From IMG/VR virus record IMGVR_UViG_3300048550_000839, positions 1 to 59,063 of that record: DNA of 59,063 nucleotides. The stretch is one strand, 5' to 3'. The translations under genes and the position numbers were made by a program. Below the pieces are notes generated by a model that did not search any database, had not been told where the DNA came from, and saw only the letters and a list, made by a program, of their open reading frames with translations. The stretch is from a virus. Numbering within the stretch: the first letter of the stretch is position 1; every line of letters starts with the position of its first letter. Shown piece by piece: positions 2,227 through 59,063 of this stretch.

Positions 2227-2255
2227 ATTATACTAAATTTTGCCTTAGTTGTCAA
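2227..2255 (-). promoter_or_regulatory. sigma70-type promoter for clamp/dpdA
   Basis: On the minus strand TTGACA (2255-2250) and TATAAT (2232-2227) are both perfect consensus with a 17-base spacer. The -10 box lies about 21 bases before the clamp ATG, and the -35 box overlaps the end of the UDP-sugar dehydrogenase gene. It should be read by host RNA polymerase, giving early expression. Confidence 0.85.
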
Positions 2256-7181: not shown

Positions 7182-7200
7182 TTATATTCCTTTTTTTTAT

Positions 7201-7209
7201 ATTATAGCA
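7201..7209 (-). promoter_or_regulatory. Extended -10 promoter for DNA polymerase
   Basis: Minus-strand TGCTATAAT: a perfect -10 hexamer (7206-7201) with the TGn extension just upstream. No good -35 box is seen at the right distance, as is common for extended -10 promoters. It lies about 20 bases before the polymerase ATG. Confidence 0.6.
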
Positions 7210-7739: not shown

Positions 7740-7764
7740 ATAGTACTCCTTAGTTATTTGTTTT

Positions 7765-7793
7765 ATAATAATAGAATATTGTCAAAATGTCAA
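7765..7793 (-). promoter_or_regulatory. sigma70-type promoter for dsbA-like gene
   Basis: Minus-strand TTGACA (7793-7788), 17-base spacer, then TATTAT (7770-7765, one mismatch), 25 bases before the start codon. A second overlapping TTGACA occurs 8 bases downstream of the first. Confidence 0.6.
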
Positions 7794-38076: not shown

Positions 38077-38088
38077 TTAAATTCATCC

Positions 38089-38757: not shown

Positions 38758-38776
38758 TATTTTTCTCCGTTTTTTA

Positions 38777-38784
38777 TATTTATC
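38777..38784 (-). promoter_or_regulatory. Late-type promoter element GATAAATA
   Basis: Minus-strand GATAAATA, 19 bases before the ATG at 38757. Confidence 0.55.
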
Positions 38785-38799
38785 ACTTACGGAAGACTA

Positions 38800-40206
38800 T
38801 TAAGAACCAAGTGCTACCCAACCTGTTTGAGTACGGAATTGTAGTTCATTGTCAGTTATGTTAAGAATAATTTCTCCAGGTCTTGGATTAGAAATAGCGT
38901 TTCTTTGTGTAGTTGTAAAATAAGGAACTTGAAGTCCTCTTGTACCATTAGTTGCAGGAAGTTGCAACCATCCTGCGTTGCCTTGTCCGTCAGCGTTGGC
39001 AACGTAGTATTCCGCATAATCATTTGTTTGGTGGAAATCTCCAGTTTGTGGTGAACTAGGACGAGATGCATTAGGCTGAATTCTAAGGTAATTATTTACA
39101 GTCACTCTGTTATTTTGACCTGCGTCAATAGATATATTTCCACTGTTTTTTACTTCCGGCGTATTGAGTCGCACTGTGCTTGTCATCTCATTACCCGTAA
39201 TTTCATTACCAGCAGTAATATCTCCATTGGTAGCAACTATGTTACCATTTGTTGTTGCAAAGTTACCATTTGTACTACCTAGACTTGTTACCACAGTCAA
39301 GTTAGTGACTTCTGCGTTAGTAAGAGCACTAGTTCCTGCACCGTTAGCAGTAATCGTTCCAAAGGTAGCACTTTGCGTGGTAAGTGCGCCTGCTGTCAAC
39401 ACAGCATCTAAATCTACGTTTAACAATACTTGTGCAAGTGTAACAAACTGTGTGTTAGTATTATCAAAAGTAAAAACACCTGTGCTACTGTTATATGAAA
39501 TTGGATCACCTGCACTTAAACTTGCTCTTGTAATGTATCCTTGGGCATTAACTTCTGTAAGTGTAATAAAATTACTATCATTAGCAAGCTGGCTTGTTGA
39601 TGTTGGTACCAATGCTGGTGTAAAACTAAATTCACCTGTGCTATCATCATAAGTTAAACTACCATTACCGCTTGCTGGATTACTTATAAGGCTTAGATCA
39701 GTTAATTCAATACCGCCTCCACCGCCGGTATTGTCTACACCTTGCCAACTAAATCCGTCCCATTTTAAGATTTTATCGACTACACTTCCATCTGAAGGAT
39801 AGTTTGCAAAAACATCTGGAATATCAGCAAGTCTCTCAATTCCACTAATGACTGGTTTGTTATTAATAAAACTTGGATCATTAGGATCTGTTTCATTCCA
39901 ATTAGGTTGCACTTGGATACTACTTAAAGGATTTCCACTTACTGTGTAGTTACTTGCATCAACTACTCCGGCAGCAGTAACACCACCTGTTAAAGTTAAT
40001 GTTCCGCCAGCAATAGCTGAAATATCTGCACCAGCAGCGGTAATTGTGCTGCTTAAAGTAATTGTTGCAGCAGTCAACTGAGATACTAAAGACAGATTGT
40101 TTAAGTTAGCAATGCCGCTTCCTGTCATATCTAAAAAATCGCCATCTGGCATTTCTTTTATATTTGAATCTGTTGCATCTACTACTAGTGGAAATCTATT
40201 TGCCAT
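38800..40206 (-). CDS. Tail-fibre protein
   Basis: A 468-residue fibre-like protein. MANRFPLVVDATDSNIKEMP starts it (a typical opening for tail-fibre proteins of marine T4-like phages); the middle is rich in Thr/Ala/Gly beta-strand repeats, with a glycine run (GGGGG) near residue 163. The end (RNAISNPRPGEIILN, LQFRTQTGWVAL) is a receptor-facing type C-terminal module. No cleavage or chaperone domain is seen. Late element 40225-40232 lies 18 bases before the ATG. Confidence 0.8.
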   Translation of the reverse strand: MANRFPLVVDATDSNIKEMPDGDFLDMTGSGIANLNNLSLVSQLTAATITLSSTITAAGADISAIAGGTLTLTGGVTAAGVVDASNYTVSGNPLSSIQVQPNWNETDPNDPSFINNKPVISGIERLADIPDVFANYPSDGSVVDKILKWDGFSWQGVDNTGGGGGIELTDLSLISNPASGNGSLTYDDSTGEFSFTPALVPTSTSQLANDSNFITLTEVNAQGYITRASLSAGDPISYNSSTGVFTFDNTNTQFVTLAQVLLNVDLDAVLTAGALTTQSATFGTITANGAGTSALTNAEVTNLTVVTSLGSTNGNFATTNGNIVATNGDITAGNEITGNEMTSTVRLNTPEVKNSGNISIDAGQNNRVTVNNYLRIQPNASRPSSPQTGDFHQTNDYAEYYVANADGQGNAGWLQLPATNGTRGLQVPYFTTTQRNAISNPRPGEIILNITDNELQFRTQTGWVALGS

Positions 40207-40224
40207 TCTATATGTCCTTTTTTA

Positions 40225-40232
40225 TATTTATC
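40225..40232 (-). promoter_or_regulatory. Late-type promoter element GATAAATA
   Basis: Minus-strand GATAAATA, 18 bases before the ATG at 40206, in the short gap between fibre genes. Confidence 0.55.
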
Positions 40233-40239
40233 GTACTCA

Positions 40240-40743
40240 TTACAATGCAGCTATTCTTGCTTTGAAGTCTGCGAAATCTGCACTTGCTGCTACTTCAGTT
40301 TTTAGTGTTGCTAAACTTACGTATCCTGGAATAACAGCATTTACAGCATCTACTAACAATGTGCTATCGTCAGCAAATACACTACCTTGTAAATCTCTAG
40401 GTGCTACTAGTAAATCATCAGTTTCTGGTTTTGTGTACACTTGTATTTTTGTATATGCGTCTGTAATACCAAACCCTGCTAATGTATCTGGAGGATTTGC
40501 TAAATCAGAAAAACTTATTAAGTCATTAGGAACAGTTCCTGATAATGCATTTGCATTTAGACTACTGTTAGGTCCATCAACAAGCATTGTGCTATCAGCA
40601 CCTATAATTGTTTGTGCAGCTTCTCCACCTGTCCTTGCGTATAGTTCTGCAAAGTTATCATTAATTTTTATCATTGCAGCACGTAACGGATCACCTCCAC
40701 CGCTGTTTGCGCTAGATCCTACGTTGATTACTTGAATAGCCAT
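40240..40743 (-). CDS. Small tail-fibre-associated protein with shared N-terminal module
   Basis: A 167-residue protein starting MAIQVINVGSSANSGGGDPL then RAAMIKINDNFAELYAR, the same module as the 222- and 2185-residue fibre proteins. The rest is short beta-rich, then a helical end (SLATLKTEVAASADFADFKARIAAL). It starts at the stop of the 2185-residue gene (one-base overlap), so translation is coupled. A fibre connector or accessory role is likely. Confidence 0.7.
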   Translation of the reverse strand: MAIQVINVGSSANSGGGDPLRAAMIKINDNFAELYARTGGEAAQTIIGADSTMLVDGPNSSLNANALSGTVPNDLISFSDLANPPDTLAGFGITDAYTKIQVYTKPETDDLLVAPRDLQGSVFADDSTLLVDAVNAVIPGYVSLATLKTEVAASADFADFKARIAAL

Positions 40744-43700
40744 TATACTCTCCCCACTACTAGTTCAACGACACCGTGTCCGTCGTCATCTTTTGTACCT
40801 ACTGCTTTACCAATAACTTGTCCAATGCCTGGGGAATTATTTACTATACCGTATCCGGGTACAGCACTAGTAACAATCATATCACCTTTTTCTACTCTAC
40901 CAATTACTTTACAAGGTACACGCCCTTGTAGTGCTACACCAACAACATTGTCTCCTTGTAATGCACTATTCATTAGGTGTGCTGGATTAGTTGTAACTAC
41001 ACCAGCAGCTTTGTGATCATTTTTTGTATTACATAGTGTAACTTCTGCTTCACCACCAAATACTAAAACTGTACCTGGTTCATATTCTTTATCTGCTAGA
41101 TAGTTTTCTGCAAGGTCAGCATATAGTGCTTCAGTGGCTTGTCCATTAAACACTGTTGCCCAAACTGTATTGTATCTGTTACCATTAGCACCAATGTTAA
41201 CATTATTATCTGCTCCAATGTTTGCTGGACCAGTTATGTTGCCAGAATGATTAATTGTAGTAAGTCCTGTGAGTGCTGTAATCGAACCACCTAAGGAAAC
41301 ATCAGTGCTACCAATTGTAATACCGTCATTTGCAAGTTCACCGTTACTGATTTCACCGGCTTGTAATGTTACAGTTTTGCTACTAAAATCAAGTGTGCCT
41401 GCCATTTCATCAGCACTAACACCTCCGTCTTTTATTCCTACCCAGCCATCAGTAACTTCAAAATTAGCACTATCAAAACTTGCCAAGCCGCTTAGTGCTT
41501 GAATAGCTTCTGCATCACCTGTTGGTGCAGGCGTAAATGCTGTTGTTAATTGCATAGCTAATTTACTTTGAACTATTCCTGCATCATCATTAATATCAGT
41601 GTTTATAATTACACCCGGTGTAATACTTGCTGTAAGTTCGTTAGCTGCTGTTCTTGTTAAACCAATATCACCTACTACATCAGCATTTTCACTTGACTGA
41701 GCAGTTCCGTTAAACATTAGAAGTTGTCCAGAAAGTGGAGCACCTGTACCTGTTATTGTTACATCGCCAATATCATTAAGTTCATCTGTTTTGCTATCTA
41801 CATATGATTTATTTGCACCATCGCTGCCGGTAATAGGAGTAGCAAGATTTGTTAGTCTATTACTACCCATATTAAGAACATCTTGCATAGGTGTTTCACT
41901 GAATCCAGCACCGCCTAATGATAGAAAGCCTGGTCCAATTATTGGAGTATATGGTTGCCCATCTCTATTTAAACCTAAACGTGCATTGATATATCCTTCA
42001 ACTGCTGTTTGTGTTGGTACTGCATCGCCTTTAGCATCTGTGAATGTGTCATCAGCACTAAATTCATTTACACGTACACCACGCTTAAATCCAATACCGT
42101 CAATGTTTGTAAGAACAAGTGCCGCATTAAATGTAACACTACCTGTACCCTGATCAACTGTAAAGAATCTACCTACACGGAAGAAACCATCTTGGTCAGT
42201 AAGTACAGCAAACACACGCCCTTTATCACGTTCTTGCACCTGTGCTTTACTTGCGTTACCTGTACTGTCAATTGCATCGTTAGTGCTTACAACACTTGTA
42301 CCAAATGGCTGACCAAAAATACGATCTGGATAGTTACTTGTATTATAACCACCTGTACCAATATCGAGCATATCGTGTCCTGTAGCTCTTGTAGTACTAA
42401 TGTTGACAGTTATTTCACCATCTTCTCCAGCTACTAAACCACCTTTAAGTGTTATACCTGCGGTGTTGGTTAAACTCGTACCTAATCCTGCCGCGGTTGC
42501 TGGCCAATTAATATCACTGTTTGCTTTATCACTTATGCCTATCATTGCAATTGGTACAACACCAGTTCCAGGGTTGAATGTATATTCACTATAAGTATCT
42601 ACAACGTGTACCTTGCCACCCCAAGCAAATATCATTTCACCATCGGCAATTCTTGCTTGGTTAGTTGCATCAAGTGGATTAATTATAATAAATCTATCTC
42701 CAACTTTACTACCAAATGTTTTTGCTGCATCCGGAGTAACACCGCCTAGGATATCTGAATAGTTAGGATCTACGACAAAAGTACCGTTGTTTTCTGCTGT
42801 TGCAATGTAATCATTTTGTGCAGTCAAGTCAATGTATCTATAGTTACTGTCAAAAGTAACAACCCGTTCTGTAGCTGTTGTATTATATCCTGCAAGTATT
42901 GTGGTACCGAATGCAATTGTACGGTAAGTAAGGTCTGCATCATCTGTAAATACAAATGCAGTACTTGGTCTTGTTGCTGGATTGACTACAGGAAAGTTAT
43001 TTAGAATGAAATTTTGTTTGTGTCTAATAACACACTGAGTATTGTGAGGTGAAGTTTCTTGTAGGCCATTACTTGCTGTTCCTTCAATACCAGTACCTAA
43101 GTTTAATCTATAAACTCTGTTATCACGTACTGCTGAACTATCATCAAAAGTAGCAGTACCTGTGACAGATACAGCAGTTACAGTGCCACTGCTTACTGTG
43201 TCGATTGTTATCGTTGCATCATTAGCAGTGGTTGCACCACCTAGTAAATTACCTGCTACCACAAATGTTTCACCTACTGCATAGCCACCGCCAGCGGTGA
43301 GAATATCCACTTGATATCCGTTAGTTCTATTTTTTGTAATTTTAAAAGTAGCTTTTGACGATTGCGGACTACTACCTGCATAAGTGGCAGCAATGGTATC
43401 ATTTATACCATCATATTCGCCCCACTTATATGTAAGTTGTTGTGCGTTTGTAATTTCGTATGGTTGATATAATCCGCTTGGGTGTAAAATTTCAACTTCA
43501 CTTACGTTTAAAGGAAATCCTGTACAATCGTAAACATAAACAAAGAGCTTATCGGCATCTGCGCTTACATCTTCTAAAACAACGGCAGCAGGTTGTTGTA
43601 ATATAGTTGCACTATCATCCGTAGTAACATCGTCTGTTGCACTGAATATACCTGTAATATCCGTTATATATATTCTCTTGCCGCCTTCGCCTAATGCTGC

Positions 43701-46700
43701 TACTGTAGCACTAGCACTGGTTACTTGCTGTTCGATTGTATCTCCAACCGTAACACCGCCTGGCACTGCACTAGTGAATTCTAAATAACCTTCGATATTA
43801 ATTACTTTTCCAGAAAATACCATATCGTCTCGAAGATTTACATCAGTTGGAATTTCGTCTGGATCGGCACCCTCTGATACAAGACCAAAGAAGCCATAAC
43901 TGTTGTTACCGCCTAAACTACGAATTTGAGAACCGTTACTTGCAATATAACCTGTATGACAATAATATGTAAACATACTAACACATTCTGTAAGGGCATT
44001 GTTGTTAGCGACAATACCAAAACCTAAGTCATTAACCTGTGTAAAGTCATTTGATAACATACTTCTGTTACCACCACTTTGTACAAATATATCAACACCA
44101 GTACTACCTGTATACCCATTTCCACTGTTGCTGGTTTCATCAATAATCAAATCGCACGTACCAGCAGTTTGGTCATAGCTTTCAATTGCGTTTACCTGAT
44201 ATCTAGCACCGTTTAAAACAAAAGGAAAAGGAGTAGGTGGACGTCTGATAAACAATCCTTGTCCTGCCGGAGAACCAATTGTTACTTTAAATGGATTGGT
44301 TACATTAGTAATTTGTGCTGGCATATTTGCAGCATAACCGTCGATATATTGTCCACCGTTGAACGCACGTTTTGTACCAAAAGACTGTGAAAAACTTGTA
44401 CCAGTTTGACAATAAGGTGAACGTGTTAGAATTTGACCTTCAGGGTCAAGTACCATCATAAATCCACCGTGTTTTTGCACAGTGATATTTCTAACAATAG
44501 TAGCATCGTTACAAAGGAACACATCCATTTCTTTGTTTTCTTTTGGTGGATTATATGCACTATCAAAAGCAAATGCTACACAATCAATTAAGTTGTTTGC
44601 ATTAGTATCGGATTGAGATTCTGCTGCATAATCTGCATCAAAAATCTGTGATACTGATCCAGCTGCTGCAAAAGGATTACCGCTGTCATTAGCAAGTACA
44701 CTAGTAAGTATTGTTTTAATATTTAAAATTGCAGCTTCTGTTTGAGCTTCTTGTCCGCTTACCGCACCGATATAGTATGCACCTTGATTTATAAGAGTTT
44801 GTTTTCTGCCGCCGGCATTTAAATCTTTAACCAAGCCTTCTATAATTAATTGTGTATCTCTACGACACTTACTTTCATTATAAACTAATGAAGGGTAGGT
44901 AGTATCTACATATTGAATTGTTTCTTCAACAATAAAATCTTTGTTCAATTCTATAAGGTTAGCAGCCTGTGGAAAGCTGCCTGGATTAGATGCACCATTA
45001 GTACCAATATTTTGTGGGTTACCACTATCAGTGAGATAATGATATCCATATTTTCCTTGAATTGATGCTTGTGGGTGAGTAAAGTGATAACCACCGCCTG
45101 TAGTTGCAACATCAAATGTTAATGCTGCGCCACCGCCGCTGCCCATATCATCGTCATCAATAGTAATTGTTTCACCTATTATCCAACCAGTACCGCCATT
45201 TCCAACACTTACAGTTGCAGCACCGGTACCATCAACAACAATAGTAAATGTAGCATCTTGACCAATTCCTGTTTTTGCATAATCATTTGCTGCAATTTGA
45301 TAAGTGCCTGCCTGTCTACTTGCATCTGCACCACTTTGATTTGTTATAGTTGCAAGTGGCGAGGCTGCTGCAGGTAATCCATCAAAAACAATATCTCTAT
45401 AGAAGTATGTATTGGCATACTTACTTTGTGATGTTCCTTTTGCAGGACGAATAACTGTACGTCTAAATTCGTCTCCTTTAACACTTACATTTTCAGGAAG
45501 TTTGATAGGTAGCTGTTCGTTGTAAATACCACTTTCTATGAAAACTGTTACTTGGTTATTTCTTACAACACTTGCAAACTCTAATTCTTCACCTACATCG
45601 AAAGCAAAAGGCTCTAAAAGTTGGACTGTAATACTATCTGTTGTTCCAGTGGCTGCTCTTGCATAAGCGGTAATAATACCTTTTGCACCACTTTGCTTAC
45701 CAACAATAATTTTGCCTGCACGTATATCCGGGTTGCCTGCTATACCTTGGTCAACTGCTGCTTGTCCGCCGTTTGTAAAACTAAATGTATAACTATTACC
45801 ATATACTAGGTTGACGTTTAAATCCTCATTGTTTTCAATAAGAGATACAATTTCATCAAATCTATCACCGTAGTATCCTTGCACTGTTGCACTAATAGTA
45901 CCGTCGGCAATAAATTCTGCTTGTAATAATTGTTGAGCTTTTCTAATACCAGCTATAGTTTCTGTAAGTTGTTTTGTTTTGGCAAGAATACCACTAGGAT
46001 TAGCATTATATCTAAAGCCTGCCCAACGTGTTAGATAATTTGCAGTAGAGCCTGCTTCAACATCTAAACCTATACTTTGCAATATTAATTGTGTATCACG
46101 TCTACAAATTCCTTCATCGTATTCTAAACTCGGAAAGTTAGTGTTTATGTAATCTGTTGTGTCAAATGCAATTTGTATTTTTTTTGATTCTACAATTGCT
46201 CTTGCTGCTGCTGATGTCGCCACAGGGCTTCCAACTCCAGTTACAGTGTCAACTACACTATTAATTTTATTGCCTGAATGTGTAATAGTTTGCACATATG
46301 GACCAGGCTCGAAAGGAGTTGATTCGATAATCTGTTCAGCTCTTTGCATTGCCGCATTTACTGATCCATATGCATAACTTAAACTTCTACCTTCTTGACC
46401 CGAAGGTGTAAATGCTTGCGAATCATCACCTTTTGTACTAACAAATAAGTTAGTTGGTGAAGCATAACCTTGTGTATCTACATATAGTTTTGTAACATAT
46501 TGTAAATCATCTTCGCCTTGAGGTGTACCTGCTCCTCGTAATGGTTCCGGATGATCTGTTGCAAATAAATCTTGCAACATAGTCCTATTTTCTTTTGATC
46601 CTGCACGAGAGATAACATCTTCCATTGCAGGTATTTCTCTTCCTTGCGCAGGACCTACACCTGTATCATATGTGAGTAATCCAGTAAGTTCGTCACCATC

Positions 46701-47300
46701 AGCGTTTATATAGGTATCGTCTGCATAGCCCTTACTAATTAAAAGATTATCTGTGGAAATTTGTGGCAGACTATCGTGTATAGCATTCCAATTGTCTATC
46801 ATAGTTGTAGCACTATCGCCCGAACCGCTTACGTTTCTAAGGATGGTATTTTGTGCATTACTATAAGCAGCTGGTGCTTCTACTGATAAAGGATTTAATA
46901 ATCTAGGATCAGGATCACGTTCGATATGAGGATCGTTAATAACTATTCTAACACTTCCACTTTCGTTTGGAGTTGTAGGATCAGGATCCGTAAACGTGAA
47001 AAATACACTGTTTGTGGTTGAACTAGGATTGCTTACACTATTATTGTTTGCTCCGCTATCACTGACAAATCTATAAAAACTCATAAATGTTGCTTGGGTG
47101 TTTACAAGCGGAACGCTACTTTCATTTCCTGAGTATTGACTAGGAGTATCGTCTAAAGCTGTAAAACTAATAGTACCTCCTAAACCAAATACTGCAAATA
47201 GTTCACTGAAGTTTTCGTTTACTTTTTTAAAACTTTCACGAATACTATCGCCTGTACCGTCGTTGCCCTCTACACCAATATCAATTTCTTGTTTAGCCAT
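40743..47300 (-). CDS. Giant 2185-residue tail-fibre protein
   Basis: The largest gene here. The shared anchor module (IDIGVEGNDGTGDSIRESF, KVNENFSEL) opens it. A repeated unit with PSLxYxExxCRRDTQLI occurs twice, near residues 390-410 and 795-820. Long stretches of beta-helix-like Gly/Thr/Asn/Asp-rich sequence follow. The C-terminus (ALYADLAENYLADKEYEPGT, then GDNVVGVALQGRVPCKVIG) is a conserved end module of marine T4-like tail proteins. It is probably the main long fibre or a baseplate-linked adhesin binding host surface. No stop or frameshift is apparent across 6.5 kb. Confidence 0.85.
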   Translation of the reverse strand: MAKQEIDIGVEGNDGTGDSIRESFKKVNENFSELFAVFGLGGTISFTALDDTPSQYSGNESSVPLVNTQATFMSFYRFVSDSGANNNSVSNPSSTTNSVFFTFTDPDPTTPNESGSVRIVINDPHIERDPDPRLLNPLSVEAPAAYSNAQNTILRNVSGSGDSATTMIDNWNAIHDSLPQISTDNLLISKGYADDTYINADGDELTGLLTYDTGVGPAQGREIPAMEDVISRAGSKENRTMLQDLFATDHPEPLRGAGTPQGEDDLQYVTKLYVDTQGYASPTNLFVSTKGDDSQAFTPSGQEGRSLSYAYGSVNAAMQRAEQIIESTPFEPGPYVQTITHSGNKINSVVDTVTGVGSPVATSAAARAIVESKKIQIAFDTTDYINTNFPSLEYDEGICRRDTQLILQSIGLDVEAGSTANYLTRWAGFRYNANPSGILAKTKQLTETIAGIRKAQQLLQAEFIADGTISATVQGYYGDRFDEIVSLIENNEDLNVNLVYGNSYTFSFTNGGQAAVDQGIAGNPDIRAGKIIVGKQSGAKGIITAYARAATGTTDSITVQLLEPFAFDVGEELEFASVVRNNQVTVFIESGIYNEQLPIKLPENVSVKGDEFRRTVIRPAKGTSQSKYANTYFYRDIVFDGLPAAASPLATITNQSGADASRQAGTYQIAANDYAKTGIGQDATFTIVVDGTGAATVSVGNGGTGWIIGETITIDDDDMGSGGGAALTFDVATTGGGYHFTHPQASIQGKYGYHYLTDSGNPQNIGTNGASNPGSFPQAANLIELNKDFIVEETIQYVDTTYPSLVYNESKCRRDTQLIIEGLVKDLNAGGRKQTLINQGAYYIGAVSGQEAQTEAAILNIKTILTSVLANDSGNPFAAAGSVSQIFDADYAAESQSDTNANNLIDCVAFAFDSAYNPPKENKEMDVFLCNDATIVRNITVQKHGGFMMVLDPEGQILTRSPYCQTGTSFSQSFGTKRAFNGGQYIDGYAANMPAQITNVTNPFKVTIGSPAGQGLFIRRPPTPFPFVLNGARYQVNAIESYDQTAGTCDLIIDETSNSGNGYTGSTGVDIFVQSGGNRSMLSNDFTQVNDLGFGIVANNNALTECVSMFTYYCHTGYIASNGSQIRSLGGNNSYGFFGLVSEGADPDEIPTDVNLRDDMVFSGKVINIEGYLEFTSAVPGGVTVGDTIEQQVTSASATVAALGEGGKRIYITDITGIFSATDDVTTDDSATILQQPAAVVLEDVSADADKLFVYVYDCTGFPLNVSEVEILHPSGLYQPYEITNAQQLTYKWGEYDGINDTIAATYAGSSPQSSKATFKITKNRTNGYQVDILTAGGGYAVGETFVVAGNLLGGATTANDATITIDTVSSGTVTAVSVTGTATFDDSSAVRDNRVYRLNLGTGIEGTASNGLQETSPHNTQCVIRHKQNFILNNFPVVNPATRPSTAFVFTDDADLTYRTIAFGTTILAGYNTTATERVVTFDSNYRYIDLTAQNDYIATAENNGTFVVDPNYSDILGGVTPDAAKTFGSKVGDRFIIINPLDATNQARIADGEMIFAWGGKVHVVDTYSEYTFNPGTGVVPIAMIGISDKANSDINWPATAAGLGTSLTNTAGITLKGGLVAGEDGEITVNISTTRATGHDMLDIGTGGYNTSNYPDRIFGQPFGTSVVSTNDAIDSTGNASKAQVQERDKGRVFAVLTDQDGFFRVGRFFTVDQGTGSVTFNAALVLTNIDGIGFKRGVRVNEFSADDTFTDAKGDAVPTQTAVEGYINARLGLNRDGQPYTPIIGPGFLSLGGAGFSETPMQDVLNMGSNRLTNLATPITGSDGANKSYVDSKTDELNDIGDVTITGTGAPLSGQLLMFNGTAQSSENADVVGDIGLTRTAANELTASITPGVIINTDINDDAGIVQSKLAMQLTTAFTPAPTGDAEAIQALSGLASFDSANFEVTDGWVGIKDGGVSADEMAGTLDFSSKTVTLQAGEISNGELANDGITIGSTDVSLGGSITALTGLTTINHSGNITGPANIGADNNVNIGANGNRYNTVWATVFNGQATEALYADLAENYLADKEYEPGTVLVFGGEAEVTLCNTKNDHKAAGVVTTNPAHLMNSALQGDNVVGVALQGRVPCKVIGRVEKGDMIVTSAVPGYGIVNNSPGIGQVIGKAVGTKDDDGHGVVELVVGRV

Positions 47301-47312
47301 TATATCCTATCC

Positions 47313-47672
47313 TTAAAAATTTGGAATTGCATCCATATCGAAATTTACACTTACACCGCAGCCACAACTACTTTGTGCATTTGGGTTGTTTATTTCAAAG
47401 TTACTACCTACTAGACTTTTAACATAGTCTACTTCAGTGCCAATTAAAAACATTAAACTATGTGATCCAACCACAAACGCACATCCGTTTGCTGTTTTTA
47501 CTACTTCATCATCAGTTGATAAATCGCTTGGCGTACCAATTGTACCCCATTCGTATTCAAATCCAGCACAGCCCCCGCCTTTGATGTTGAGTGTGATGCC
47601 ATAGCAGTTGTTTTCTTCGCTTAGAAGATCAATCTGTTTCTCTGCTGCTGGGGTTAAAGTTAGTATACTCAT
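47313..47672 (-). CDS. A-type Fe-S cluster carrier (IscA/HesB-like)
   Basis: A 119-residue protein. GGGCAGFEY holds the first conserved cysteine (C35), and SSCGCGVS the C-terminal pair (C103, C105), the three ligands of IscA/ErpA/SufA carriers. It would deliver Fe-S clusters to apoproteins. A late-type element lies at 47688-47695. With the ferredoxin at 27 kb and radical-SAM proteins near 58 kb it forms an Fe-S theme in this phage. Confidence 0.92.
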   Translation of the reverse strand: MSILTLTPAAEKQIDLLSEENNCYGITLNIKGGGCAGFEYEWGTIGTPSDLSTDDEVVKTANGCAFVVGSHSLMFLIGTEVDYVKSLVGSNFEINNPNAQSSCGCGVSVNFDMDAIPNF

Positions 47673-47728: not shown

Positions 47729-48016
47729 ATGTTTATAAAAGAATATTTAATTGATACTTGGCATATGCGAAAAAGCAAACTAGGCAAGCAACACACATAT
47801 AATCGTAAAAAGACTATGGTTTTATTTAGATGCGATAATTGCGAAAATGAATTTACTAGAGAAAGAGGAAAAATGGATCCTAAAAGACTTAGTAATAATT
47901 ATTTTCACGTTTGCGAAAACTGTGATGCTAAACGTTTTGCTCAAAAGCAAGGCGTTAATAGGAAAAAAGTTTGGAATCTAACAGCCAGTAGTAATATGCC
48001 TATATGGAAAATGTGA
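47729..48016 (+). CDS. Zinc-ribbon protein
   Basis: A 95-residue basic protein on the plus strand. CDNC and CENC (RCDNCENEFTRERGKM ... FHVCENCDAKRF) form a four-cysteine zinc ribbon. The end GVNRKKVWNLTASSNMPIWKM looks like a conserved short tail. Basic charge and the ribbon suggest nucleic-acid or protein binding. A TATAAT (about 47704-47709) on the plus strand lies near the start, but no clear -35 or RBS is visible. It converges with the SGNH-like gene, overlapping its end by 39 bases. Confidence 0.7.
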   Translation: MFIKEYLIDTWHMRKSKLGKQHTYNRKKTMVLFRCDNCENEFTRERGKMDPKRLSNNYFHVCENCDAKRFAQKQGVNRKKVWNLTASSNMPIWKM

Positions 48017-48664
48017 GTTATACATTTTTTCTACATCTGCAAAATCCATTCCTTTCATAATTTTTTTATGAAATTTTTCGCATTTGTTACGTAATAACTC
48101 ACTTATTTCTGTACCTATGTTACTAGCGACAGTTTCTGCTATCTTTAAGTGTGCAGGTATATCTGGGTGTTCGTCTAAAAATGGCTTGTCACTCCAAGGA
48201 GCAGATTTAAATCTATATTTGCCTGGATGCTGTCTATGTAACTCTGATAAATCTACAAAATCATTCATATGCACCATTGACATATGATAATGCTTAATAC
48301 CTATTGATTCACAAATTGCTTTTGCACTAACGATATAATTTTCAGTTTTTTCATATTCAAAATCTTCGTTATACCATTCTTTAATTTTGTTCCAAATGTG
48401 TTTATTTTCTTCGCTAAAGGCAATGTTCCCATCGTTAAATGTCCATCCATCTTTTTTACGATAATCAAATCTACCAGGTGAAGTCCATTGAAGTACAACT
48501 GCATCATACAAATGCAACTGTTCTGTTTTATATAAGTGACATAATATGTAGAATATACGTTCGTTGCCTATACCAGACAATCCGTATCTATCAGCTTGCA
48601 GTATATCTGCGTATGTTGGCCAAATATAATTTGTAAAACTACAACCAATTGCAGCTATATTCAT
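47978..48664 (-). CDS. SGNH/GDSL-hydrolase-like protein
   Basis: A 228-residue protein. IGCSFT at residues 6-11 is a block I motif with the nucleophile serine, SGIGNER is block II-like (Gly/Asn), and DEHPDIPAHLKIAE near residue 165 resembles the C-terminal Asp-x-x-His block. The family includes esterases and acyl hydrolases acting on sugars and lipids. Two related proteins lie at 55.7-57.1 kb. The start overlaps the small membrane protein as ATGA. Confidence 0.65.
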   Translation of the reverse strand: MNIAAIGCSFTNYIWPTYADILQADRYGLSGIGNERIFYILCHLYKTEQLHLYDAVVLQWTSPGRFDYRKKDGWTFNDGNIAFSEENKHIWNKIKEWYNEDFEYEKTENYIVSAKAICESIGIKHYHMSMVHMNDFVDLSELHRQHPGKYRFKSAPWSDKPFLDEHPDIPAHLKIAETVASNIGTEISELLRNKCEKFHKKIMKGMDFADVEKMYNSHFPYRHITTGC

Positions 48665-49079: not shown

Positions 49080-50159
49080 TTATGCAGCCAGATGCTTTGA
49101 TTCGTCAGTTATACTATATAATTGACCACTAGCCAAGTTCTTCATCTTTGCTTCTACCATAATATCCGCCCACGACCAATGTGACAATGCCCATTCATTG
49201 CAAGCATTATTCCAGCAGTAGTCGCTGTGTGCTCTTAGTTTTGCTCGTTTGTACCCTGCTTCGAGGAGTGTGTTGTATTCCGGTTTAACATTATCGTTAT
49301 GATCTTGTAGTACGTCCTCACGGCATAAACTATAGTGAATAACAGGACGCTCGCCACGCCAACTGTCAATAATGCGTCCAATACGGTCGTCATCTGGTTC
49401 AATGTATTCTCCTGTTTTTACCCAATGGTGATGAATATCTAAAACCAATGCTAAATCATCTACTAGTTCTAAGCTTGCGTCGAGACCCCACGACATTTCG
49501 TCGTTCTCGATCGTGATAGTATTTCTTGCTTCTGGTGATAGTCTTGGGAGGACGGCTTTGATACCGGCCGGACCTTGTCTACCCGAGATGTGGACGTTGT
49601 TCTTAAAGTCTTGGAACTTCTTACCGAACCCCATCCACCGTATGAGAGTGGCGTGATATTCAAATTCTTCTATGCTCCTTTCGACGATTTCTGGGTTATC
49701 CGAAGCAAGGACTGTAAATTGTCCTGGGTGCATTGAGAGCCTAACATCCAGGCGTCTGGCTGCGTCACCAACCTCTCTATAGTGCTTTTCTCCGTACGCA
49801 ACCACGTCAGGCAAAGACCAAAAATAGCGCCAGCTAGACTCGGTAGCACAAGGAAGCTGATTGCTACCCAGTCGGACCATACGAAGTTCTGGAGGAAGGC
49901 TTCCCACATATTCAACTAACCTCTTTGCGGCTGCTGCATTGTGTACCATAATGTCCCACAGTCTTTGTTCTGCAACATCCTTTGTTTGTCTATTTAGCCA
50001 AGCAACGGTTGTGCATCTCTCTGTGAGTGGACGTTGGATTTCTTCTAGAATTTTCTTCTTTTGATTTTGATTGTGATGCAAATATTTGCAAGCAAAACCA
50101 ATACGCTTTTGTTGCGATTTCAAAAAGTCGCCTGCATTTGTAAATTTTAAATCATTCAT
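49080..50159 (-). CDS. uvsE: UV-damage endonuclease (UvdE/UvsE-like)
   Basis: A 359-residue TIM-barrel DNA-repair nuclease. RIGFACKY, SMHPGQFTVL, TIENDE and LDIHHHW are the metal-ligand motifs of UvdE, which nicks DNA 5' of pyrimidine dimers. It would protect phage DNA in sunlit water. The middle of the gene is clearly richer in G and C than its neighbours (I counted 58 of 120 bases at 49501-49620), which suggests recent transfer. It has its own near-perfect promoter at 50166-50194. Confidence 0.93.
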   Translation of the reverse strand: MNDLKFTNAGDFLKSQQKRIGFACKYLHHNQNQKKKILEEIQRPLTERCTTVAWLNRQTKDVAEQRLWDIMVHNAAAAKRLVEYVGSLPPELRMVRLGSNQLPCATESSWRYFWSLPDVVAYGEKHYREVGDAARRLDVRLSMHPGQFTVLASDNPEIVERSIEEFEYHATLIRWMGFGKKFQDFKNNVHISGRQGPAGIKAVLPRLSPEARNTITIENDEMSWGLDASLELVDDLALVLDIHHHWVKTGEYIEPDDDRIGRIIDSWRGERPVIHYSLCREDVLQDHNDNVKPEYNTLLEAGYKRAKLRAHSDYCWNNACNEWALSHWSWADIMVEAKMKNLASGQLYSITDESKHLAA

Positions 50160-51412: not shown

Positions 51413-51441
51413 TTTATAACAAAGATAAATTAGTTTGTCAA
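51413..51441 (-). promoter_or_regulatory. sigma70-type promoter for metallophosphoesterase
   Basis: Minus-strand TTGACA (51441-51436), 17-base spacer, TATAAA (51418-51413, one mismatch), 25 bases before the ATG. The -35 box overlaps the end of the glycosyltransferase gene. Confidence 0.7.
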
Positions 51442-52130
51442 CCCCAATTTTTCTTAACCCAACTATCATTTGCATCTAAAGGATTTGGTTCTCCGTGAAA
51501 TACCGCAACACTACAATCGTTTAAGATTTTAGGAGGTGCATCTACAATAAAGTTTCTTTTACCTTTGTGTAATTGCAAATCACGTCTGTCACGCATTTCC
51601 CATTTATAACTTTGTATCCATTCATCTGGCCAATAACTAAAATTTCTTATATTTTTATACATCCAATCTTGGTCGCCTCTGTGTTTTTGCATATGCATTT
51701 TAGGATCATTTTTAAATTGCTGCCAAATAGGATCAAACATTCCTGTTTCTAAACGAAATACACTGCTATTGATTTTATCAAAATTATGCCTTATACTTCT
51801 GTTAAAATCTCTTATAATACAAAACTGTTTCGGCTTATGTGTAAACAATTTATCAATATTTCTAAATACAATTACATCTAGATCAAAATACAGCATTGTA
51901 CCTTGTATAGGCATATCTTTACTGAAGAACCAAGGCTTGAACCACCAACCGTCTAAGTTCATAGTGGGCAATTGCATAGTTGTAATTTCTTTGTCAATAT
52001 CTTTGCGATTTTCGGTAAAGCAAATAAATTGATGAGGTATATTACAATGCCTTTGTGTCATTGCATATAACTTATTTACATATTCAGCAGAGTATTTCTT
52101 TCCCCATTTCAAACAAATTATATAATTCAA
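51438..52130 (-). CDS. Glycosyltransferase (GT8-like), TTG start
   Basis: A 230-residue protein. YFDLDVIVF provides the DxD metal-nucleotide motif, and HRGDQDWMYKNIR resembles the catalytic stretch of GT8-type glycosyltransferases with FHGEPNP near the end. The start is TTG 52130, supported by GGAG about 6 bases upstream, overlapping the NMNAT-like gene. Substrates may be phage DNA, virion proteins or host surface; not determinable here. Confidence 0.75.
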   Translation of the reverse strand: MNYIICLKWGKKYSAEYVNKLYAMTQRHCNIPHQFICFTENRKDIDKEITTMQLPTMNLDGWWFKPWFFSKDMPIQGTMLYFDLDVIVFRNIDKLFTHKPKQFCIIRDFNRSIRHNFDKINSSVFRLETGMFDPIWQQFKNDPKMHMQKHRGDQDWMYKNIRNFSYWPDEWIQSYKWEMRDRRDLQLHKGKRNFIVDAPPKILNDCSVAVFHGEPNPLDANDSWVKKNWG

Positions 52131-52531
52131 AGCACTCCATCTAACCTCATTTGTTTTCTTATTTTTGTAGCACTGATATTGTGTATGTCTTCACCTAAAT
52201 CGTGTTCTGTAAAAGTATAACCTACACCTCTACCATAGCTTATGTCTACAATGTTAGGCACTCTTGTAATAATATACTTATCAGCATATTTGTAACCTTC
52301 TTTTTCAAGTTCTTTCTTGATATTTTCAATTACATCCATTACTTGAAAAGGATTATCGTCTTGCACCATAGTTCTGCCGCCGCCAGCATCTTCTTTGAGT
52401 GGAACAGTCCTTACCATAATAATAACTTGTCCTGTTTCTTTTAGCGCACGTTTGAATAATTCTGTATGTCCTTTGTGCCAGGGTTGAAATCTACCTAGCA
52501 TTTGTGTTGTAGGTGAAAACTCGTTAAACAT
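52127..52531 (-). CDS. Nucleotidyltransferase, NMN/phosphopantetheine adenylyltransferase-like
   Basis: A 134-residue protein with GRFQPWHKGH (HxGH, H19/H22) and ISATKIRKQM, the two signatures of the adenylyl/cytidylyl-transferase superfamily. The loop TVPLKEDAGGGRTM is like that of phage NMN adenylyltransferases. It could act on NAD metabolism or activate another phosphorylated compound. It overlaps the kinase-like gene by 8 bases and the glycosyltransferase by 4 bases. A different nucleotidyltransferase lies at 3.7 kb. Confidence 0.75.
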   Translation of the reverse strand: MFNEFSPTTQMLGRFQPWHKGHTELFKRALKETGQVIIMVRTVPLKEDAGGGRTMVQDDNPFQVMDVIENIKKELEKEGYKYADKYIITRVPNIVDISYGRGVGYTFTEHDLGEDIHNISATKIRKQMRLDGVL

Positions 52532-52946
52532 TTTTCTCCATCCATCTTTTCACAACTGGTACAAGTGCTTCGTGTGTATCATTAAACCATTTACTAATTA
52601 CGTAATCGCATTCCTCTGGTTTTTGGAACATATTGTTTGTATCTTTGAACCGTCCTTGTTCGATAGTATCCATCCACACTGTAAAGTTTGGGTTAAAGTT
52701 TTTCCTTATTTCCTCTGTAGGTGCAATAAAATCTGCAACAGCAATCTTGCCTGCCATAACTACACCATCTGCTAAATGTTTCATACGAACAGACTGTCTA
52801 ATACGACCGGACAAACTAAAGTCCCAATCGTCATAACTTGTTCTTACTACATCAGCATTGATATGTACACCGCCTACTAATTCTGCAAACGGCTTTGCCA
52901 GTGTAGATTTACCACTGCCAGGCAAACCAAATATTAAAATTTTCAT
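52524..52946 (-). CDS. APS-kinase-like P-loop kinase
   Basis: A 140-residue P-loop kinase. GLPGSGKST is Walker A, HINADVVR and VADFIAPTEEIRKNF match the CysC/APS-kinase family pattern, and VWMDTIEQGR follows. APS kinase makes PAPS; a related small-molecule kinase is also possible. It overlaps the QueD-like gene by 4 bases and belongs to a four-gene operon behind the promoter 53477-53505. Confidence 0.8.
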   Translation of the reverse strand: MKILIFGLPGSGKSTLAKPFAELVGGVHINADVVRTSYDDWDFSLSGRIRQSVRMKHLADGVVMAGKIAVADFIAPTEEIRKNFNPNFTVWMDTIEQGRFKDTNNMFQKPEECDYVISKWFNDTHEALVPVVKRWMEKNV

Positions 52947-53419
52947 TCTGAAAATGACATCTTTTGTACAGTGTATGATTTGTAAATTGCGCTATTAGCA
53001 CCGTGTTCGGCACATTCAACTTCAATGCAATTACACCGTCCTTGGGTCATTTCTTGAACAAGTTCATTAGCTTGCCGCCAAGCGTGATAAGCAAACTTTT
53101 CAACTCCTACACCATCTAAGATTGTAATTTCTGCAAGTCCTGCATTTTCAAGTTCTGCAAATTTATACAACATAGGATCGTCTCTGTCTAGTACAACCTT
53201 GTGATCAAATGTATCTTCTAACCAAGCCTTTAATGGTTTCAGTCCTCCAAAATCAACAACCCAATTGCGTTCATCAAGTTCTGTTGCTTCAAATGTAAAT
53301 TTAAATTGCAAACTATATCCGTGTAAGAAACGGCAGTGTGAATGATCTGCGTGTGGTTGTCTAAAGCAGGCGCTTAATCCAATGTTATGTCCGTAAGTTT
53401 TTGTGCTATAATAAGCCAT
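52943..53419 (-). CDS. QueD/PTPS-family protein (divergent)
   Basis: A 158-residue 6-pyruvoyl-tetrahydropterin-synthase family protein. SHCRFLHGYSL aligns with CxRxHGH: the catalytic cysteine and first histidine are kept, but the second zinc histidine is Tyr and the upstream AAHR histidine appears to be Cys (SACFRQ). FDHKVVLD and the late VECAEHG match family positions. It may make 6-carboxy-tetrahydropterin for preQ0/deazaguanine synthesis, fitting the DpdA-like gene, or have a new activity because of the changed ligands. It is the first gene of a four-gene operon. Confidence 0.75.
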   Translation of the reverse strand: MAYYSTKTYGHNIGLSACFRQPHADHSHCRFLHGYSLQFKFTFEATELDERNWVVDFGGLKPLKAWLEDTFDHKVVLDRDDPMLYKFAELENAGLAEITILDGVGVEKFAYHAWRQANELVQEMTQGRCNCIEVECAEHGANSAIYKSYTVQKMSFSE

Positions 53420-55713: not shown

Positions 55714-55742
55714 GTTATAGCATACTAATTAGTAGTAGTCAA
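55714..55742 (-). promoter_or_regulatory. sigma70-type promoter for SWIM-protein operon
   Basis: Minus-strand TTGACT (55742-55737), 17-base spacer, TATAAC (55719-55714); one mismatch in each box. It overlaps the end of the SGNH-like gene. Confidence 0.55.
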
Positions 55743-56451
55743 GTCTTTTACATTCAAAATCTAAATAATTACTCCAAGCAATATGAGCATCAAGTCCTAA
55801 ATGCCAACATTCTGTCTTTTTAAAGCCAGCTTTAAGCCCCCAATACAGAAAATTTGCATCTTTTGTAGTAGGATTTAAGTATGTTGATGTATCTAGTGAA
55901 TTAATTATATTTTTATTGTTCTGTGTATATGATAATTCTTCACAAGTGTTAAACATTATATGTTTTACATTATTCCTTTGTAAAAGACGTTGGGTAGTAA
56001 GTGCATAACTTGCCCACATATCTAATTCTTTAACTTCGGACATTAAATTAGGCATTATTCTGTGAATACGTTTAAACTCATTTGTTTTAGCAATATCAGG
56101 ACCTTGTCCTATACTTATAGGAAAATATTTCTGATCAATTCTACTTAACACATCGTGTTCTATATCTGAGTCTTCGGGATATCTTAGTTCAGTTCTTAGT
56201 AAACTTGTCCACCCTATAACCAAAACATAGTCTTCATCACGTTTACGTAATCTAGTTAGCCAATCTATAGTTTGTCTGTGTATAAATTCATTGCTTCCAC
56301 CAGGTTGGCTTAAATGGATGCATTTGAAATTATTTTTCTTTGCTAATAGTGCAGCATAATTATTGTTCAAATTATAAAGACTGCTACTTTGCTTTCCGTC
56401 TAACATTGTTCCGTATGTATGACTACATCCTATTGCTACTATTGTAGTCAT
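55729..56451 (-). CDS. SGNH-hydrolase-like protein
   Basis: A 240-residue protein. AIGCSHTYGTML (residues 6-17) is the nucleophile block, GGSNEFIHR the second block, VIGWTS a central strand and WHLGLDAHIAWSNYL the C-terminal D-x-x-H block. It is probably an esterase or acyltransferase-like hydrolase on sugars. It overlaps the related upstream protein by 4 bases, and both sit behind radical-SAM genes. Confidence 0.7.
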   Translation of the reverse strand: MTTIVAIGCSHTYGTMLDGKQSSSLYNLNNNYAALLAKKNNFKCIHLSQPGGSNEFIHRQTIDWLTRLRKRDEDYVLVIGWTSLLRTELRYPEDSDIEHDVLSRIDQKYFPISIGQGPDIAKTNEFKRIHRIMPNLMSEVKELDMWASYALTTQRLLQRNNVKHIMFNTCEELSYTQNNKNIINSLDTSTYLNPTTKDANFLYWGLKAGFKKTECWHLGLDAHIAWSNYLDFECKRLDYY

Positions 56452-57071
56452 TTAGATTCCAATTTTTCTTTAAGCAAATTTGCAATTAATTTTTGTCCAT
56501 CTTCTGTGTAAAAATTAGACTTTAATTTCTTAACATATTTTTTTATATTAGCTTTTGGATTCTCAACTCCTATATATCTTGATCTATCTATATGTTTTAT
56601 CATATACAACGTGTTATGATTCCAATCAATTGCATTTTCTACATTATACATTACGTAATTAATATCGTAACTTTTGAGCAATTCTTGCAAACTTATTACT
56701 AAATTACACCAACGAGTATTAGTTAAGTGTTCGTCTAATAAAATTTTTTGAAATTTATTAATCCGTACCAAATCATAATCTAAATTTTTAATTCCTAAAC
56801 TGTAATTATAATAATTAGGATCCGAAAACCCTGTGTACTTTTTCTCTTTATGCAATTTTCTTAGTTCTAAACTCTGAGTATTACTCCAGCCTATTACAGG
56901 CAAAAAATTTTTATTCTCGACTGTATATTTTGTAACTAGTCTAAATATACTTTGTGGACTTGTAGTTTCTGTACTGCAATCAATGTAATTGTAATTTAAT
57001 TTTTTTGCTAAGAAATATGCAGCATTTTTATTTCCAACCAAGGCTTGACAACCAAATGCAACTACATCCAT
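56448..57071 (-). CDS. Degenerate SGNH-like protein
   Basis: About 207 residues from ATG 57071. VAFGCQALVGNKNAAYFLAK and PVIGWSNTQSLELRK mirror the downstream SGNH-like protein, but the nucleophile position is Gln/Ala rather than Ser-x-T and the C-terminal DxxH block is not evident. It may be an inactive paralogue. ATG 57071 overlaps the radical-SAM stop as TAATG and is preceded by GGAGG; the longer TTG start at 57092 is less likely. Confidence 0.6.
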   Translation of the reverse strand: MDVVAFGCQALVGNKNAAYFLAKKLNYNYIDCSTETTSPQSIFRLVTKYTVENKNFLPVIGWSNTQSLELRKLHKEKKYTGFSDPNYYNYSLGIKNLDYDLVRINKFQKILLDEHLTNTRWCNLVISLQELLKSYDINYVMYNVENAIDWNHNTLYMIKHIDRSRYIGVENPKANIKKYVKKLKSNFYTEDGQKLIANLLKEKLESK

Positions 57072-58396
57072 TACATATATTCCTCCATCCAAGGAATATA
57101 ATCTAGTATGTTTACTTTTCTAAATCGATCACTAGCTTTTGTATTGTTTATATATTTTTGCCAATCGCCCTCGTTTGGTTCTTGGTTAAGTTGATTTTTT
57201 AAACCTAATATTGCATCAACTGCCCACTGCTCCCAATCTGGTAACGCTGCATTTTTAAATTTAGCGTGTTGTTGTTCTAACATATCATTCATAAGTTTTT
57301 TACGTTCTTCTGGTAAATTTCTAATATGTTGATTACGTGGATATTCAACAATGTTAAAATGAGGTAAACAATTTTGATATCCGTGATTGCCCCAATCCCA
57401 AGTGTAATGCCACGTGTCGTAGTTTTCTTTACACCAATTTAAAACATTAGGCAAGTCGTGCAAATTCATAACACTAATTGTAACGTGTGTATGTACGATT
57501 ACACCTGTGCGTGTTTTACTAAACTTTTTCAGTTTTTCTATGTTACGTTTTATAATTTTCCATTTGCTAGGAAATCTTACATAATAAGCCAAGTCATCTG
57601 TAGCATCAATACTTAAACTTAACACAACTCCTCTAAATTTATCCCAAATATCTAAAAGTCTATCTGGAATGGTTGTACCATTAGTATTATAATGTAGTTC
57701 AATGTTCTGACTCCATCCTTTTTCGATAATGTGTTCTAACCAAGTATAGTGTTCGTCTACAACCAAAGGCTCGCCACCGATAAAATTAATAATTTTTACA
57801 TTTGGCAGAACATCATCAAAGAAATCTTCAGCAAATGCTTTTATAAACCAAGGATCTGTACTACTAAGTTTTCCGATTTTATATGCAGTTTCGTCCCAAT
57901 CTGTGTGTGGAACTGTAGGACCTTCTTCAATCCATCTGTGACTAGCCCAAGGATTACAACTACGACATTTAAGATTGCATACATTACCTAAACTTATATC
58001 TAGATATGTAATTGCTTGTGGATCTAAAAACCCATCTTCACTTACGTTTTTTAAACTTTTATCTATATGCTCTTCGTATATTTCGTTTGAAGTCTGTCTA
58101 AAACTACGTATGCCATCGTTTTCTAATTTAAAACAATCAGCACAACCCTTTGGTTGCTCTCCTTTTAATAATTCTTCTCTTATTTTCATTATTTCAGGAT
58201 CATTTATAAACTCGCTTATATTTTCAGCTGCGTTTACCTTATCGTTGTATTCTGGAGTATCTTGGAAGTTTATACCAGGCATAAACTTTCTTGTTTCTTG
58301 TCTACTAAAACAACAAGGTCTACTACGTCCGTGAGGATGAGTGCTAAAACTTTGCATAGCGTGATAGCAAAATGTATCAGGCGATGAGGTTGACAT
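57071..58396 (-). CDS. Twitch-domain radical SAM protein
   Basis: A 441-residue radical-SAM enzyme. CNLKCRSC (C140, C144, C147; CX3CX2C) binds the catalytic [4Fe-4S], with NFIGGEPLV (SAM-binding GGE) following. N-terminal cysteines (PCCFS at 28-29 and CADC at 85-88) probably bind an auxiliary (twitch) cluster. The substrate cannot be predicted. It overlaps a second radical-SAM-like gene upstream and the SGNH-like gene downstream, forming a coupled cassette. Confidence 0.88.
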   Translation of the reverse strand: MSTSSPDTFCYHAMQSFSTHPHGRSRPCCFSRQETRKFMPGINFQDTPEYNDKVNAAENISEFINDPEIMKIREELLKGEQPKGCADCFKLENDGIRSFRQTSNEIYEEHIDKSLKNVSEDGFLDPQAITYLDISLGNVCNLKCRSCNPWASHRWIEEGPTVPHTDWDETAYKIGKLSSTDPWFIKAFAEDFFDDVLPNVKIINFIGGEPLVVDEHYTWLEHIIEKGWSQNIELHYNTNGTTIPDRLLDIWDKFRGVVLSLSIDATDDLAYYVRFPSKWKIIKRNIEKLKKFSKTRTGVIVHTHVTISVMNLHDLPNVLNWCKENYDTWHYTWDWGNHGYQNCLPHFNIVEYPRNQHIRNLPEERKKLMNDMLEQQHAKFKNAALPDWEQWAVDAILGLKNQLNQEPNEGDWQKYINNTKASDRFRKVNILDYIPWMEEYM

Positions 58397-59063
58397 TTTC
58401 AGGCCTCGCTTTACTTATGTTAAAATCTGCTGCACAATGACAATGTGTTTTTGGACAAATTATACCTTCACTTAGTTTAATATCAAATTTACCTTGTACA
58501 ATATTGCCTACTATAGGACCAACACCGCAACTTGCTTGTTGTATTCTGCCATTAGGATGTATGTGTAAACTTTCGTGTATATTACAAGTCCATCCTTTAA
58601 AGAAGTTTTTACCTTCTGTAATAATCAAATTCGTATCAATTGCTTCTACTGTATCATCTGCGTAATGCACCTTTGCCCAAGCATAATTTGGTTCTTTGTG
58701 TATAGGTATAACTTGTTGCCTTGCACTACTATTTGTTTTAAAGAAATCCATTTGCCATTGTTCTTCGTAGAAATACGGGTCAGTGCTAGGACGTAATTCG
58801 TCATACACAGGCGCATATTCTATCATATAATTATCACAAGTATCTTTTATTTTATCGCCAAAGTCAATGCATTGTTGGAAATGTTTATGATGCATCATTA
58901 TTCTACTACAAAGATAATTTTTTTTGTCTTGTAAAAATTTATATGACTGCAAATATTTTTCTTCTTTGGTCCATTCTGCGTGATAACTTGCAACAACATC
59001 TTCAAAAAGATGATGATGCTTTTCCCACCAACTTACTGGTCTGCTAAAATTTGTGTTTATTCC
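58377..59063 (-). CDS. Radical-SAM-like protein, N-terminus cut by window edge
   Basis: The frame stays open to the right edge, so only the C-terminal 228 residues are seen (from GINTNFSRPVSWWE). A TTG at 58952 is not the likely start. Late cysteines (WTCNIHES, IQQASCGVG, IICPKTHCHCAADF) follow the layout of the auxiliary-cluster end of SPASM/twitch radical-SAM proteins. The radical-SAM core must lie beyond the window if the call is right. It overlaps the next gene by 20 bases. Confidence 0.6.
   Translation of the reverse strand, partial: GINTNFSRPVSWWEKHHHLFEDVVASYHAEWTKEEKYLQSYKFLQDKKNYLCSRIMMHHKHFQQCIDFGDKIKDTCDNYMIEYAPVYDELRPSTDPYFYEEQWQMDFFKTNSSARQQVIPIHKEPNYAWAKVHYADDTVEAIDTNLIITEGKNFFKGWTCNIHESLHIHPNGRIQQASCGVGPIVGNIVQGKFDIKLSEGIICPKTHCHCAADFNISKARPENVNLIA

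Follow-up and report, generated by a model that had tools for sequence, protein, structure and literature searches.

A conserved phage operon of six radical-SAM genes and an SGNH pair, with a possible role in sugar tailoring

The window analysed here is a marine phage sequence of 59,063 nucleotides, positions 1 to 59,063 of the viral record IMGVR_UViG_3300048550_000839 (IMG/VR), and the subject is a cassette of radical S-adenosylmethionine (radical-SAM) and SGNH genes at its right edge. The initial annotation described two radical-SAM-type genes, one cut by the edge, followed by two SGNH-like genes. The cassette is real and conserved, and it is larger than that description: it contains six distinct radical-SAM genes (A, B, B12, C, D and E), compared to the two seen in the window. 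The operon has the order GTx-A-B-B12-C-D-E-SG1-minus-SG1-plus, where SG1-minus and SG1-plus are the dead and the active member of the SGNH pair. The class of mechanism is probable. As to its function, we lean on a modest balance of likelihood towards an operon for making or tailoring an unusual sugar or glycan inside infected cells.

Organisation of the operon

The right edge of the window has four open reading frames (ORFs) on the minus strand, listed in Table 1. D and E overlap by 20 nucleotides, E and SG1-minus by 22, and SG1-minus and SG1-plus by 4. This run of overlapping genes, radical-SAM followed by an SGNH pair, had been noted in the initial annotation and is borne out by the ORFs and by family matches. 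A second viral record, G002, overlaps the window over 1,775 bases at 99.94% identity and supplies the whole of D. The genes from GTx to E were read in this record (locus L050), where they too have small overlaps, and the SGNH pair was read in the window.

GTx is at the upstream end of the operon and encodes a protein of approximately 390 residues. Its AlphaFold model (predicted local distance difference test, pLDDT, 90) matches GT-B glycosyltransferases, including EarP, PimA, the O-fucosyltransferase SPY and FucT (E values of 9e-5 and up). On the basis of the model, GTx is predicted to be a GT-B glycosyltransferase. A sequence search of the PDB with the GTx profile gave no match.

The radical-SAM proteins

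E matches the radical-SAM family PF04055 with 51.6 bits (cut-off 29.5) and N_Twi_rSAM (NF033640) with 323 bits (cut-off 170), and has the CX3CX2C motif, as CNLKCRSC, inside the window. It was the only window protein to match PF04055; the D fragment has no core, because the window holds only its C-terminal 228 residues. Full-length D (L050:7001-7993) has the motif as CNFRCTYC, which is conserved among its relatives, and a relative in L006 matches PF04055 with 30.5 bits (gathering score 29.5). The initial annotation had proposed that the sequence be extended across the edge gene. The extension gives a complete D with a radical-SAM motif, and the edge gene therefore does not lack a radical-SAM core.

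The C-terminus of D is rich in conserved cysteines (C262, C281, C305, C310 and C312 in L006 numbering), which probably form an auxiliary cluster of the twitch or SPASM type. All matches of D to named NCBIfam families are far below the cut-offs. No match of D to NF033640 was reported, and D therefore lies outside N_Twi_rSAM. Against the viperin family NF038283 (cut-off 180) D and E score only 33 and 27 bits.

The A, B and C proteins of relatives match N_Twi_rSAM with 306–404 bits, and the B12 protein has a B12-binding domain together with a radical-SAM core. When 135 N_Twi proteins are placed in a tree, A, B, C and E fall into four separate clades (support for B 0.86), and are therefore orthologous slots occupied by distinct enzymes. 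Recent tandem amplification of these four genes is ruled out by the same tree.

The SGNH pair

SG1-plus matches DUF6071 (PF19547) with 29.6 bits (gathering score 27), and a homologue in L111 does so with 34.8 bits. Its AlphaFold model (pLDDT 86.5) was searched with Foldseek. It is most similar to GDSL proteins and to CE2 acetyl xylan esterases (E 7e-5), the top five matches having template-modelling (TM) scores of 0.46–0.52 by query length, which places the model in the SGNH fold. The nucleophile serine is invariant (GCSHT in all aligned copies of A4, GCSH in A8), as is the block-V histidine in the CWHxxxDAH region. Block III does not have the GxND pattern, and the claim is therefore limited to a protein that has the SGNH fold and is probably active, and that is not a typical SGNH member. 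A sequence search of the PDB with the SGNH profile found no match.

SG1-minus is a paralogue of SG1-plus (profile E 1.1e-19) in which the nucleophile serine has been replaced in all 12 copies, by Glu, Lys, Gln or other residues. Where present, it lies directly downstream of E and directly upstream of SG1-plus, although the L072 lineage has no SG1-plus. The ratio of non-synonymous to synonymous substitution rates (dN/dS) is 0.17–0.29 for SG1-minus and 0.08–0.18 for SG1-plus, compared to 0.01–0.03 for E among its closest relatives. The loss of the serine in every copy, taken with the dN/dS value, marks SG1-minus out at the sequence level as a maintained pseudoenzyme. A decaying pseudogene is ruled out by the same value. 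The SGNH pair diverges much faster than the radical-SAM enzymes, as might be expected of a component that determines specificity. The initial annotation proposed an inactive paralogue serving as a partner subunit. This is backed only indirectly, by the strict adjacency, by the loss of the serine in all 12 copies and by the dN/dS of SG1-minus.

The third SGNH-like gene, which the initial annotation placed near 48 kb, is present, but its sequence belongs to a different SGNH family from SG1: BLASTP gives E 0.09 to SG1-plus, and E 2e-11 to the 'SG2' SGNH protein of related cassettes.

Conservation and distribution

A profile of D searched against 2.9 million viral contigs found at least 174 related places. 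We fetched 79 of these loci, of which 77 had a recognisable D, representing 39 lineages (below 95% identity). Within 7 kb of D, SG1 occurs in 26 of the 39 lineages, B12 and C in 23 each, E in 22, A in 19, and B and GTx in 17 each. Many loci end at contig ends, and these counts are therefore minima. Gene order is kept in the marine group. In a second group, where D is only 38–40% identical, D is followed directly by SG1, and in L075 the cassette is rearranged with the orthologous slots retained (C-D-Tw33-A-B12-E). Neighbourhood conservation had been suggested as a check on the cassette, and the genes are indeed kept together across the 39 lineages.

Among 50,697 phage records there is no match to D or to the window SGNH proteins, and E matches only radical-SAM proteins of Vibrio phages, at 21–26% identity. 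A first genome scan, with D, found nothing, having used patterns that were too narrow; a second scan used N_Twi instead. D-like proteins occur in two Bdellovibrionales metagenome-assembled genomes (MAGs; 366 and 371 bits), in each case beside an N_Twi gene; a further one (413 bits) is on a contig assigned by binning to Rhodobacteraceae. It is thus ruled out that D is found only in phages. In the Rickettsiales MAG MED657, a 735-residue protein (L341:6906-9113) matches the profiles of both D (138 bits) and N_Twi (133 bits). Its sequence is consistent with an N_Twi/D fusion, which suggests that N_Twi and D act together.

Two further arrays were seen. In a Bacteriovoracaceae MAG (L301:5034-17030) there are eight N_Twi genes, mostly in tandem, with no sugar genes among the markers tried. 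A viral contig of 36.8 kb (record G013, loci L020 and L021) has 20 radical-SAM domains, including an A-B-B12-C-D-E block, together with a 2-oxoglutarate (2OG)-Fe(II) oxygenase gene.

Possible function of the operon

The initial annotation suggested that the cassette acts on a sugar, lipid or peptide. The partners of SG1 speak to this choice. When the search was widened with SG1, 44 lineages were recovered: 22 have D, 26 have D or N_Twi, and 35 have a GTx-like protein no more than 8 kb away. GTx-like matches are otherwise rare: a scan of 336 kb of phage DNA gave four. In large phages, several SG1 loci also contain genes for a UDP-glucose/GDP-mannose dehydrogenase (UGD) and a DegT aminotransferase, for amidino- and carbamoyltransferases, and for a B12 radical-SAM protein. 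In a related locus the amidinotransferase has a match to StrB1 at 1.8e-56, and an NAD epimerase is also among the genes of relatives' loci. On the basis of the GTx-like partners and these loci, sugar tailoring is the best reading of the operon.

In three viral contigs of 108–364 kb (L182, L174 and L196), there are UGD, B12 radical-SAM, DegT, amidinotransferase, GTx-like and SGNH genes, with carbamoyltransferase-like genes after them. This looks like an aminoglycoside-type sugar cluster carried by phages. The genes of L182 were checked by Pfam; those of L174 and L196 were identified by their order and N-terminal sequence.

We hypothesise that A to E and the B12-dependent enzyme would carry out successive radical steps on a nucleotide-sugar or glycan, candidates being C-methylation, dehydration, epimerisation and C-C bond formation, with D and one N_Twi enzyme working as a pair. 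GTx, with its predicted GT-B fold, would transfer the sugar. The active SGNH protein would remove or move an acyl group on the glycan, probably acetyl, and the dead one would be its bound partner, for substrate binding or as a scaffold. A phage-encoded A-type Fe-S carrier may help to load the clusters. Because the operon adjoins tail-fibre genes, the acceptor would be a surface structure, which could be host lipopolysaccharide or capsule (to block superinfection or change the receptor) or the adhesins of the phage itself. A bolder version is that the operon is a complete serial-radical pathway to a natural product or sugar unknown from cells, with five SPASM/twitch-type enzymes and one B12-dependent enzyme, its last steps being performed by a glycosyltransferase and an SGNH heterodimer that has an obligate inactive subunit. 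This we regard as rather unlikely.

Several observations weigh against sugar tailoring as proposed here. For none of the enzymes of the operon has a close relative been characterised. No sequence family matches GTx, and its model matches GT-B structures at TM scores of only about 0.3–0.43. Block III of SG1 reads GWTS or HWTG, lacking the GxND asparagine of SGNH/GDSL enzymes. The UGD, DegT and amidinotransferase genes belong to relatives and are absent from this cassette. Among bacterial N_Twi loci few have sugar genes, in a limited marker scan, and a Paenibacillus N_Twi gene (L326:8533-19221) has a PP-binding carrier-protein domain and an AMP-ligase as neighbours. The N_Twi family is therefore not confined to sugar loci. 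The choice between host and virion as acceptor is a guess.

The Paenibacillus locus also fits lipid or acyl chemistry, in which the radical-SAM enzymes would act on acyl chains, either carrier-bound or in membranes, and the SGNH pair would serve as a thioesterase, acyl-hydrolase or acyltransferase. The SGNH model matches the thioesterase TesA too, the B12 enzyme resembles, below the cut-offs, the B12-radical-SAM families for hopanoids and other lipids, and A and E are weakly similar to the tetraether lipid synthase Tes. However, in the phage cassettes examined we recognised neither a carrier protein nor a ketosynthase or acyl-CoA ligase; the consistent partners are glycosyltransferase-like proteins, with sugar enzymes in some relatives. 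We consider lipid chemistry unlikely, though still a candidate. (Ketosynthase-like and reductase-like neighbours were also seen in the Paenibacillus locus, judged by eye only.) Many SPASM/twitch radical-SAM enzymes are peptide maturases, and both the N_Twi and B12 proteins have sub-cut-off matches to maturases (TIGR03975, StsB, WgkB) of ribosomally synthesised and post-translationally modified peptides (RiPPs). The operon might by analogy modify a ribosomal peptide or a virion protein, with the SGNH pair removing a group or acting as a partner. No conserved precursor peptide was found near D, where no small ORF is common to more than four of the 39 lineages, although a distant precursor is possible; the ORF shared by four encodes a SWIM-motif protein. 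The lack of a widely shared small ORF speaks against a RiPP. In addition, the overlapping genes leave a precursor no intergenic room, and neither a leader-binding domain nor a peptidase was recognised in the cassettes examined. Peptide maturation thus appears decidedly unlikely.

The remaining alternatives are less likely still. A modified nucleotide, arising from DNA hypermodification or from antiviral-like chemistry of the viperin or QueE type, would account for the sub-cut-off similarity of D to prokaryotic viperin, MoaA (30 bits) and a QueE-like phage family, for the low-scoring MoaA and QueE matches of the D profile in the PDB, and for a PTPS/QueD-like gene at 52943-53419. It is nevertheless very unlikely: the scores are far below the family cut-offs, only seven of the 39 lineages have the QueD-like gene within reach of D, and such pathways have no need for six radical-SAM enzymes or for a glycosyltransferase and SGNH pair. 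The genes could instead be unrelated accessory cargo gathered beside the tail fibres and not one pathway. In related marine phages this region is known to be hypervariable (PMC7029224), and B12, GTx and SGNH are each absent from some lineages. Yet order and overlap are kept where D is down to 38–40% identity, the slots survive the rearrangement in L075, purifying selection is strong, and there is the apparent N_Twi/D fusion. Loose cargo is accordingly the least likely of the readings considered.

Flanking genes and other radical-SAM genes of the phage

Tail-fibre genes at 33157-47300 adjoin the cassette. The phrog_1962 glycosyltransferase lies within 8 kb of D in seven of the 39 lineages. Next to it in the window, at 52127-53419, are consecutive PTPS/QueD-like, APS-kinase-like and cytidylyltransferase-like genes, their families named from L006 homologues. 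A gene at 49080-50159 encodes a UvdE-type UV-damage endonuclease (PF03851, 125.8 bits).

Table 1 Genes of the cassette within the window, and flanking genes of related interest.
Feature	Position	Strand	Remarks
D, radical-SAM, C-terminal 228 of 330 residues	58377..59063	-	5' part outside window
E, radical-SAM, 441 residues	57071..58396	-	N_Twi_rSAM family (N-terminal twitch); CNLKCRSC
SG1-minus, SGNH-fold pseudoenzyme, 214 residues	56448..57092	-	GCQ in place of nucleophile Ser; block-V His missing
SG1-plus, SGNH/GDSL-type hydrolase, DUF6071, 240 residues	55729..56451	-	GCSHT nucleophile; CWHxxxDAH block V
Glycosyltransferase phrog_1962 (E 1.2e-24)	51438..52130	-	Flanking; at most a candidate for operon membership
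Third SGNH-like protein	47978..48664	-	Flanking; related to 'SG2' of related cassettes
A-type Fe-S carrier, SufA/ErpA/IscA-like	47313..47672	-	Flanking; TIGR00049 85.1 bits, cut-off 58.8

The A-type Fe-S carrier is 9 kb from the cassette and may supply clusters to the radical-SAM enzymes. Its co-occurrence with D (11 of 37 D records, against one of 20 polymerase relatives without D) was set aside, because the records are fragmentary and one of those 'D-less' records, G044, is the same phage as the window. G044 is identical to window positions 1-9875 over 9,875 bases (100%) and extends the window leftward. It contains a second array of ten radical-SAM domains (L288:3284-17374 and L289:4919-6292), beside UGD-like and GTx-like genes. 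With the eight radical-SAM genes on G002, the phage population has at least 18, provided that the overlapping records represent one population.

Radical-SAM enzymes are oxygen-sensitive and costly. Despite this cost, one phage population carries at least 18 such genes and a related contig 20 in 36.8 kb; uncultured phages carry radical-SAM chemistry in bulk. A fixed operon with defined partners turns the vague label of 'auxiliary metabolic gene' into a testable pathway, and gives DUF6071 and N_Twi_rSAM proteins their first functional context. It is also a warning on automatic labels. In one survey of viruses the heme gene ahbD was reported 261 times, with a function that the survey itself called speculative (PMC9301287), and genes like those of this operon may underlie such calls.

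Comparison with known systems

No account of the operon, of the SGNH partner pair or of their function was found in the literature searched, subscription journals and preprints being outside the search. Two papers describe the nearest systems. A 2017 survey noted 12 radical-SAM genes, along with an A-type Fe-S carrier, in one T4-like marine genome (PMC5332604), and a 2020 study of pelagimyophages reported that cassettes of radical-SAM genes occur with glycosyltransferases in the host-recognition region (PMC7029224). The likeness to the phages of these papers lies in membership of the marine T4 superfamily, in several radical-SAM genes near tail fibres and glycosyltransferases, and in the A-type carrier. 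The passages on radical-SAM genes in these papers mention them only briefly and describe no operon structure, SGNH pair, B12 member or function. The initial annotation considered such combinations not to be standard T4-like functions, which is right for classical T4, although radical-SAM cassettes have been reported in marine T4-like phages. As a point of difference, the window phage has a DNA polymerase whose closest relatives are in the large phages Phosso of Sinorhizobium (49.9%) and Atu_ph07 of Agrobacterium (44.2%).

With streptomycin-type tailoring (StrB1, DegT/StrS and the NodU/CmcH-type carbamoyltransferase) the connection is through other phage lineages, in several of which such genes adjoin SGNH relatives. 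They are absent from the window cassette, and provide context only for the kind of chemistry. In relation to N_Twi_rSAM, A, B, C and E score well above the family cut-off and D stands outside, and the family tables consulted give no reaction or substrate. Finally, SG1-plus resembles DUF6071 and the SGNH/GDSL hydrolases, including CE2, in passing the PF19547 cut-off and in the match of its model to GDSL and CE2 folds. It differs from SGNH/GDSL hydrolases in its block III, and in being partnered with a paralogue that has lost the nucleophile.

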